A stretch of DNA of 39,370 bases, taken from the NCBI GenBank assembly GCA_002688925.1, contig NZEC01000010.1:1-39370 (forward strand). Direction: 5' to 3'. This document shows, in pieces, positions 4,257 to 5,564 of the stretch (its first letter is position 1; every line of letters starts with the position of its first letter). The stretch comes from an archaeon. GTDB lineage: Archaea > Nanobdellota > Nanobdellia > Woesearchaeales > GW2011-AR4. The translations under genes were made by a program, and so were the position numbers. The notes beneath the pieces were generated by a model, which saw only the letters and a list, made by a program, of their open reading frames with translations, was not told where the DNA came from and did not search any database.

Positions 4257-5366
4257 TTACTTAGTAACTTGGGCACTTGTTTTGGATAATGTTCTATAAG
4301 CATCCATTATCAAATCTATTGTTGTTTCCAAATCTAAACATGGGTCAGTTACCGATAATCCATATTCTAATGTAGAGCGGTCAAATCCTCTAAGATTAGA
4401 GGGAATTTTTTGATTTCCAGCCTTTAAATTAGATTCAAGCATTAGCCCAACGATACCCCTATTTCCATCTTTAACTTGTTTAATTGTATCCTGAAATACA
4501 TCTATTTGTTTTTTATAATCTTTTTTGCCCTCTCCATCCATTGTATTGTCATGACTACAATCAACAACTATATTCGGAAGCAGATTTTTACTTTTTAACA
4601 TCTCCTGAGCCCGCTCAACACTTGCCTTATCATAATTTGGACCAGTATCTCCACCTCTAAGTACTAAGTGAGTATCTGTATTGCCTGATGTTTTCGCAAT
4701 GGAAGATGTGCCATATTCATTAATACCTAAAAATGGACGTCCTATTTGGGCAGCAAGAATAGCGTTGACTGCAATACTAACATCGCCATGAGTGTCATTT
4801 TTAATACCTACTGGCATTGATAGACCAGAAGCCATTTTACGATGTTGTGGTGAATATGCTGTTCTTGCTCCTATGGCTGCCCATGAAATCAAATCTGAAT
4901 TGTATTGGGGTGTAAAAGATTCTAAATACTCGGTTGCACATGGTAAACCTAATTCTGATATCCTTAACAATATCTTACGTGATAAATGGTAACCTTTGTT
5001 AACATCATCTGATCCATCCATATTAGAATCAATAATTAACCCTTCCCATCCCAAGCTAGTTCTTGGTTTTTCAAAATATGTCCTTATTATAATTAAAAAT
5101 CTATCAGAAACTTTAGCATCTAACTCTTTAGCCCTCTCAGCATAATAAAAAGTTGCTTCAGTATCATGAATTGAACATGGACCTGTCGTAATAAAGATCC
5201 TATCATTATTATTTTTATTGAGAATATTTTCTATATCTCGCCTTCCCCGTATAACTGTTTCTTTAGCTTGTTCTGATCTTGGAATATCCTGCATAACTTG
5301 ATATGGGCTTATTAACGGTGTATATTTAATAATTCTTGTATCAATCAAACCATTACTCTTTTCCAT
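4257..5366 (-). CDS. aroG: 3-deoxy-7-phosphoheptulonate (DAHP) synthase, type I-alpha AroF/AroG/AroH-like
   Basis: GPCSIHD, YFEKPRTSLGWEGLIIDSNMDGSDDVNKG, GARTAYSPQHRKMASGLSMPVGIKN, LRGGDTGPNYD, DCSHDN. ggaggt precedes the ATG at 5366, so the TTG start at 5378 is unlikely. Confidence 0.93.
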   Translation of the reverse strand: MEKSNGLIDTRIIKYTPLISPYQVMQDIPRSEQAKETVIRGRRDIENILNKNNNDRIFITTGPCSIHDTEATFYYAERAKELDAKVSDRFLIIIRTYFEKPRTSLGWEGLIIDSNMDGSDDVNKGYHLSRKILLRISELGLPCATEYLESFTPQYNSDLISWAAIGARTAYSPQHRKMASGLSMPVGIKNDTHGDVSIAVNAILAAQIGRPFLGINEYGTSSIAKTSGNTDTHLVLRGGDTGPNYDKASVERAQEMLKSKNLLPNIVVDCSHDNTMDGEGKKDYKKQIDVFQDTIKQVKDGNRGIVGLMLESNLKAGNQKIPSNLRGFDRSTLEYGLSVTDPCLDLETTIDLIMDAYRTLSKTSAQVTK

Positions 5367-5416
5367 TTTAACCTCCAAATTTGATTTAATTTTATTAACA
5401 ACAACCTAAGAATCAA

Positions 5417-5533
5417 CTCTTTTTTTCGTTCCAGGCAAGATGGTTTTTCAGACCAAGCCAAAACGGAACTTGTAAAGAGCACATGGACTAATTAAAAATA
5501 GAAATAAAAACCAAAAAAGTTTTGTGCTCTCAT
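5417..5533 (-). promoter_or_regulatory. Putative attenuator: competing RNA stems between leader ORF and aroG
   Basis: Stem 1 AGAGCACA (5530-5523) : TGTGCTCT (5483-5476). Stem 2 CTCTTT(5479-5474)/GTTCC(5469-5465)/GGC/TGGT pairing with ACCA/GCC/GGAAC(5432-5428)/AAAGAG(5422-5417). The two stems share CTCT (5479-5476). Confidence 0.5.
5492..5533 (-). CDS. Putative leader peptide MRAQNFFGFYFYF* upstream of DAHP synthase
   Basis: Minus strand reads ATG AGA GCA CAA AAC TTT TTT GGT TTT TAT TTC TAT TTT TAA; 7 of the last 8 codons are Phe/Tyr; located about 125 nt upstream of the aroG-type CDS. Confidence 0.6.
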   Translation of the reverse strand: MRAQNFFGFYFYF

Positions 5534-5554: not shown

Positions 5555-5564
5555 TATTAATAAA
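5555..5564 (-). promoter_or_regulatory. Putative archaeal TATA box for the leader/aroG transcript
   Basis: Minus strand aaaaaagTTTATTAATAagc; A-rich BRE-like segment upstream; about 26-27 nt from the leader ATG, the spacing expected for a leaderless start. Confidence 0.5.

Follow-up and report, generated by a model that had tools for sequence, protein, structure and literature searches.

A candidate phenylalanine-responsive leader-peptide RNA switch in one order of archaea

Control by ribosomes stalled on a leader peptide is documented in bacteria, and the locus described here raises the question of whether an archaeon uses a comparable device ahead of genes for phenylalanine (Phe) supply. 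The DNA analysed, called the window, is a stretch of 39,370 nucleotides that constitutes contig C10 of an 864 kb genome (85% complete). The host is an archaeon, as indicated among other evidence by genes for aIF2 alpha, Gins51 and an archaeal S-layer protein on the same contig. The window carries aroG, which has matches in just 17 of the 353 genomes of the order, and a first-pass annotation had proposed that two RNA stems between a leader peptide and aroG exclude one another, with a ribosome on the leader choosing between them. Promoter, leader and gene are arranged as follows.

5557..5564, minus strand: TATA box TTTATTAA, its first base 31 nt upstream of the leader ATG
5492..5533, minus strand: leader peptide ORF MRAQNFFGFYFYF with its stop, probably on a leaderless mRNA (from the sequence and 24 further homologous leaders)
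5371..5376, minus strand: Shine-Dalgarno (SD) sequence GGAGGU of aroG (from the sequence), without conserved pairing partner
4257..5366, minus strand: aroG, encoding an AroFGH-type DAHP synthase (TIGR00034, 392 bits, over the cut-off)

The leader ATG lies at 5533-5531 on the minus strand. Because a TATA box stands about 30 nt upstream of it, the leader ORF probably begins at the 5' end of a leaderless mRNA, the start site being deduced from the known archaeal spacing between TATA box and transcript start. A TTTATAAA-like box is present at a similar distance in homologs, and most family members whose upstream sequence was inspected have a TATA-like box ~28-32 nt ahead of the leader ATG. The aroG proteins of three relatives (G029, G026 and G035) are 41-57% identical to that of the window, and the corresponding loci have the matching leaders MKANNNFWFYFYF, MRANSFFGFSYWF and MKANTLFWYFRLYF.

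Between leader and gene, the nested hairpin that had been described as stem 2 is present on the minus strand as claimed. CTCTTT (5479-5474) pairs with AAAGAG (5422-5417) and GTTCC (5469-5465) with GGAAC (5432-5428), and the apical part pairs GGC (5459-5457) with GCC (5436-5434) and TGGT (5455-5452) with ACCA (5444-5441) around the loop CTGAAAA (5451-5445). The element consists of the following parts.

5474..5480, minus strand: P1 5' arm GCUCUUU; 7/7 P1 pairs with compensatory changes, 90.6% paired in 25 sequences
5470..5473, minus strand: joining segment J1/2, ACAA; family consensus AUAA, near-invariant by column conservation
5465..5469, minus strand: P2 5' arm GUUCC; P2 95.2% paired, 5/5 pairs with compensatory changes
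5441..5459, minus strand: apical part, comprising GGC 5459-5457 (with GCC 5436-5434) and P3 UGGU/ACCA with the loop CUGAAAA 5451-5445
5428..5432, minus strand: P2 3' arm GGAAC, supported by covariation
5423..5427, minus strand: joining segment J2/1, GAAAA; family consensus YGAAAA
5416..5422, minus strand: P1 3' arm AAAGAGU, supported by covariation

The homolog set was assembled with two covariance models. The first was built from the post-leader element of four aroG loci, contained no leader sequence and was run over the 353 genomes of the order; the second was built from 18 sequences and was run over the class and then again over the order. This yielded 25 members in 25 genomes, including the window, all within one archaeal order (Woesearchaeota-type), plus one decayed copy, and the class-wide search returned no convincing member outside the order. 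Since the first model held no leader sequence, the presence of a Phe-rich ORF at every member is an independent confirmation. Model matches at L035, L037, L040-L042, L044-L046 and L053-L064 were set aside as chance, as they have no Phe leader ending upstream or lie inside genes. The window has no Rfam match, the best relaxed match being far under the cut-off, and no T-box was matched at either gathering or relaxed Rfam thresholds. The decayed copy (L027, G002:C66:11014-11072) retains the leader MNANMTFGFYFWFYF, P1 and P2, and its apical P3 hairpin is deleted; no aroG lies downstream, and its upstream sugar-kinase gene resembles the upstream neighbour in the window. This element seems to have lost P3 after the loss of its gene.

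Comparison across these members supports stem 2 throughout. In the 25 sequences, 88.2% of its cells are paired and 17 of 18 pairs show compensatory changes, values reached by 0 of 500 shuffles, and sliding the partner by one column lowers pairing to 48-55%. The structure guided the alignment of the 25 sequences, but stem 2 emerges equally from a plain MAFFT alignment of the initial four. Across the family the GG, the CUGAAAA loop, the CC and the joining segments AUAA and GAAAA are near-invariant, with the GAAA of the apical loop invariant in 25/25 members and the closing GG/CC near-invariant, and the GGC/GCC helix is weak (64% paired). By eye, the sequences of the joining segments are unfit for a K-turn or an 11-nt tetraloop-receptor. 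The first-pass annotation had also named folding energies against dinucleotide-shuffled controls as a check, and here the outcome is divided: the 168-nt region folds no better than its shuffles (z -0.20), whereas the 65-nt stem-2 element folds modestly better than its own (z -2.2, p 0.025; the mean across 25 homologs is z -1.7). Given these weak values, energy cannot decide the matter, and the evidence beyond chance comes from comparison across homologs; whole-region energy (z -0.2) was accordingly dropped as uninformative and replaced by covariation.

The leaders are under selection for Phe. Among in-frame TTN codons of the 25 leaders, 112 encode Phe and 6 Leu; the ratios in the other two frames are 40:48 and 50:17, so the bias reflects selection on Phe and not U-richness. 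Aromatic residues fill 126 of 225 positions in the last nine leader codons, compared with 5 of 135 earlier positions, and in every member the Phe-rich ORF ends 5-11 nt before P1. Tyr and Trp codons are common in the leaders of aroG; most leaders of pheA and pheS have few of them. Each element thus has a short leader ORF, rich in codons for the amino acid that would be sensed, directly upstream of its gene. In four more genomes (L004, L013, L015 and L017) aroG follows Phe/Tyr/Trp-rich leader ORFs of 22-38 codons without P1-P2-P3, and in L013 the aromatic leader is followed by a long hairpin of its own. Aromatic leaders may be more widespread than the P1-P2-P3 RNA family.

The downstream genes belong to Phe biosynthesis or charging wherever a function of this kind could be assigned: aroG in four members, prephenate dehydratase (PF00800) in six (L029, L033, L034, L036, L043 and L051, with L033 assigned by near-identity to L036), and pheS in five (L051, L052, L069, L070 and L071), where it is a later operon gene after another protein gene. 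The pheS assignment is by PF01409 in three; in L051 and L070, where only the N-terminal part is on the locus, it is by likeness to the others. L051 is both a prephenate dehydratase and a pheS locus, and in L068 tyrS lies beyond a GNAT-like gene. Function is assigned in under half of the first downstream genes, the others encoding small proteins. Behind the element, uncharacterised small proteins of three or more families occur repeatedly (L025/L026/L071, L039/L050 and L038/L068); they are mostly Phe-poor and may have a role in Phe starvation. In a close relative (L024, G025:C5:209970-210042) leader and element are kept, and an unassigned 126-aa gene takes the place of aroG before a PEP synthase gene. 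A pterin-4a-carbinolamine dehydratase gene (PF01329) occurs in the region after the element of L031 (genome G126). In G000 and G126 (L072-L124) many tRNA genes appear intron-bearing, and the tRNA-Phe candidates of G000 are odd.

The proteins encoded first behind the element contain 1.78% Phe, compared with 4.64% in neighbours (six-frame ORFs of >=100 aa and not curated genes), a 2.6-fold depletion that holds in 24 of 24 loci (Wilcoxon p 6e-8). The bias is stronger than for any other amino acid; the next most depleted is Lys (0.68x), and Tyr stands at 1.31x. The first genes of L052, L069 and L070, which lie between the Phe leader and pheS, encode proteins of 104, 108 and 148 aa with zero Phe. 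Such products are as expected if the genes are switched on in Phe starvation, as they would then have to be translated during it, and they support P1-P2-P3, the form that a stalled ribosome allows, as the ON form. Enzymes of biosynthesis may be poor in their own product for general reasons, and aroG proteins from loci lacking the element are somewhat low in Phe as well (0.9-3.8%, versus 1.1-2.8% with it), so this argument for polarity depends chiefly on the dehydratases and on the proteins of no assigned function.

The remaining pairing, which the first-pass annotation called stem 1 and which is named stem A here, connects the leader start with the P1 5' arm.

5523..5530, minus strand: region 1, 5' arm of stem A, leader codons 2-4 (from the sequence and permutation tests)
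5476..5483, minus strand: region 2, 3' arm of stem A, overlapping the P1 5' arm (from the sequence, permutation tests and a window-pair scan)

As had been noted, AGAGCACA (5530-5523) is perfectly complementary to TGTGCTCT (5483-5476), and because stems 1 and 2 have 5479-5476 in common they are mutually exclusive; both are evolutionarily conserved. For the permutation test, the leader start was paired with the segment from the stop to the end of the P1 5' arm, and the partners were permuted. In 18 sequences the own pairing averages -6.48 kcal/mol, against -4.31 for permuted partners (0/20000 permutations), and with 25 sequences 1/20000 permutations reaches the observed value; the signal is limited to leader nt 1-15. 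Compensation is illustrated by GCACA/UGUGC, GCAAAU/AUUUGC, GGCUGAA/UUCAGCC and GGCUUAU/AUAGGCC, and between two relatives by GAUGCG/CGCAUC and GAUGCA/UGCAUC. Stem A is not universal, however, as stem 2 is: it is conserved in leaders of <=14 codons (own -7.31 versus -4.85 permuted, 0/20000) and undetectable in longer ones, which show no excess (-3.80 versus -3.51, 5844/20000). Its confinement to short leaders is what ribosome control predicts, since only there would a stalled ribosome also cover the leader start. The family thus has mutually exclusive 1:2 and 2:3 pairings, the former being stem A (short leaders) and the latter P1 (all members).

Ribosome states were modelled by folding with the ribosome-covered positions blocked. 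In the window, P1 is predicted at 0.93 for a ribosome stalled on Phe codon 7 and at 0.01 for a ribosome at the stop. A partial transcript ending before the P1 3' arm favours stem A (0.97), and the full free RNA favours P1 (0.92). Family medians for P1 are 0.78 with a stalled ribosome and 0.10 with a ribosome at the stop. P1 stays likely despite the ribosome at the stop in several homologs (L022, L023, L039, L032 and L052), and exceptions to the family pattern occur mostly where the gap between leader and P1 is 10-11 nt. Because P1 usually beats stem A in the free full-length RNA, an OFF state would rest on kinetics or on a ribosome at the stop. Folding alone indicates which form would be possible at each ribosome position.

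These observations suggest the following mechanism. The transcript would start at or next to the leader AUG, and a ribosome would translate the short leader with its crowd of Phe codons among the final nine. When Phe-tRNA is plentiful, the ribosome would reach the stop codon, where its front edge would reach or cover the P1 5' arm; after release, or without translation, stem A, which is made early, could hold that arm. When Phe-tRNA is scarce, the ribosome would stall in the Phe cluster and leave the P1 arm free, so that P1-P2-P3 could form, and in short leaders the stalled ribosome would also cover the leader start and block stem A. P1-P2-P3 would then be the ON form that raises expression of the downstream Phe or aromatic genes in starvation. 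Comparison across homologs establishes, at the level of sequence, the Phe-coding leader, P1, P2 and P3, stem A in short leaders, the gene context and the Phe-poor product; from these we infer that the signal is charged tRNA-Phe and that P1 corresponds to ON. The earlier idea of a ribosome-controlled balance of stems before Phe or aromatic genes is thereby supported, with the amendment that the signal would be Phe, Tyr and Trp codons being mainly a property of aroG leaders. For the whole reading, a cis-acting Phe-responsive leader-peptide RNA switch in archaea of one order with P1-P2-P3 as its ON form, we estimate a probability of about 0.74.

In an unbiased scan, 801 pairs of 12-nt windows between the leader start and the downstream start codon were compared with permuted partners. 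The clear signals are P1 (z -12), P2 (z -6) and stem A (z -5). Beyond these the values fall to about -3, which, with so many tests, is close to the largest deviations in the opposite direction (+2.7). The scan contains no conserved third hairpin (3:4, the P1 3' arm with downstream sequence). Two candidates were rejected on this basis: a 3:4 helix that looks good in single sequences (AAGAG-UUGA-UUCUU in the window, AACAG-GGGC-CUGUU in L029) fails the permutation scan, and pairing of a leader GGUUUU with a hairpin AAAACC, suggested by four sequences, has no support in the scan and is lacking in several pheA leaders. One short motif was found after P1.

5409..5412, minus strand: UUCU motif 3' of P1, in 18/25 homologs versus 5.6% background

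Directly following P1, this UUCU(GA) motif resembles the UCUGAAA of the apical loop.

In a classical attenuator of the bacterial type, P1 or a downstream hairpin would be an intrinsic terminator and stem 1 the antiterminator. A few homologs do have a GC-containing stem followed by U's (L024 TTTTTCTT, L043 TTTTCTTTT and L039 TTTCTTTT), and at the two positions that follow P1 the fraction of T is 0.72-0.80, but in most members the longest T run in the first 15 nt is 1-3, and neither a 3:4 hairpin nor a U-tract is conserved before the gene as an intrinsic terminator. A P1 terminator would moreover turn a Phe-stalled ribosome into an OFF signal in starvation, contrary to the gene content and the Phe-poor products, which makes this reading quite improbable. 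Archaeal termination has been described as intrinsic at poly(U) stretches or as aCPSF1/FttA dependent (PMC8116511). With an archaeal host and an apparently leaderless leader ORF, a bacterial-type Rho-independent terminator is not expected. The attenuator architecture that had been proposed is thus supported for the leader, the exclusive stems and the genes but not for bacterial transcriptional attenuation, there being no conserved 3:4 hairpin, no SD-sequestering helix and, as the first-pass annotation had itself remarked, no canonical U-run after stem 2. Judged from sequence, the element resembles ribosome-mediated attenuation as far as the choice of structure, and for want of the terminator it is not classed as a classical attenuator. 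Translational control, in which the two forms hide or expose the SD site of the downstream gene, appears rather unlikely: an SD-like site lies ~20-110 nt after P1 and single members (L031) could pair it, but no segment of leader or element covaries with the SD, and its mean openness is about the same in free (0.29), stalled (0.34) and stop (0.35) states. SD sequestration found no support, with neither a conserved SD helix nor a systematic change in openness.

It is also unlikely that P3 mimics the anticodon arm of tRNA-Phe, either as a binding site for phenylalanyl-tRNA synthetase or as an occupant of the stalled ribosome's A site. Its 7-nt loop YUGAAAA places the Phe anticodon GAA at the equivalent of positions 34-36 in most members, GAAA is present in 25/25, and pheS is in the operon in five genomes; P3 is, however, just 3-4 bp long, some members have C at the U33 position or a shorter loop, GAAA could equally be a GNRA-like loop, and no element was found that combines another anticodon-like loop with another codon. 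Variable helices around invariant unpaired AUAA, GAAAA and CUGAAAA look aptamer-like, as a metabolite-binding riboswitch for Phe or a precursor would, with the leader peptide incidental. We regard this as very improbable, as selection for Phe acts in the reading frame of the leader, every member has its leader anchored to the element, stem A draws on leader codons and nothing in Rfam matches. Within the leader-peptide switch favoured here, our tentative view, held at somewhat less than even odds, is that the ON form would be a new structured RNA acting directly on the machinery of transcription, translation or decay, or through mimicry of the tRNA-Phe anticodon arm, a new output mode that would be neither terminator disruption nor freeing of the SD.

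Known systems share parts of this arrangement. The Phe leader-peptide attenuators of Escherichia coli pheA/pheL and pheST likewise have a short Phe-rich leader ORF before pheA or pheST and exclusive 1:2 and 2:3 pairings between which ribosome position would choose. The archaeal element differs in its host and promoter, in having no 5' UTR before the leader and no 3:4 terminator or U-tract, and in its P1-P2-P3 with invariant loops, its optional stem A and its lack of an Rfam match. T-box riboswitches of Firmicutes and others also sense amino acid supply upstream of biosynthesis and aminoacyl-tRNA synthetase genes, whereas the archaeal element has no Rfam T-box match, no specifier codon and a translated leader. 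The E. coli thrS operator is a tRNA mimic bound by ThrRS, and the archaeal element has, ahead of Phe genes, a hairpin that may resemble an anticodon arm, with pheS part of the operon in some genomes; unlike the operator, it stands behind a translated Phe leader, and its P3 has just 3-4 bp. In bacterial leader-peptide switches of the erm/cat type, which are translational, a stalled ribosome frees the SD site; a stalled ribosome would choose the leader structure in both cases, but an SD-pairing helix is not conserved in the archaeal leaders. A search limited mainly to open papers found no amino-acid-sensing leader peptide in archaea, and within the literature covered a Phe leader switch of this type is, as far as found, new for archaea.

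A conserved, covarying Phe leader in archaea would bring ribosome-sensing cis-regulation into a new domain of life, in a switch that would work on a leaderless mRNA and without a bacterial terminator. The gene set behind it is depleted in the very amino acid that would be sensed, including the three small Phe-free proteins of no assigned function, and with the Phe leader one can readily ask whether translation in archaea acts in cis on the expression of downstream genes.
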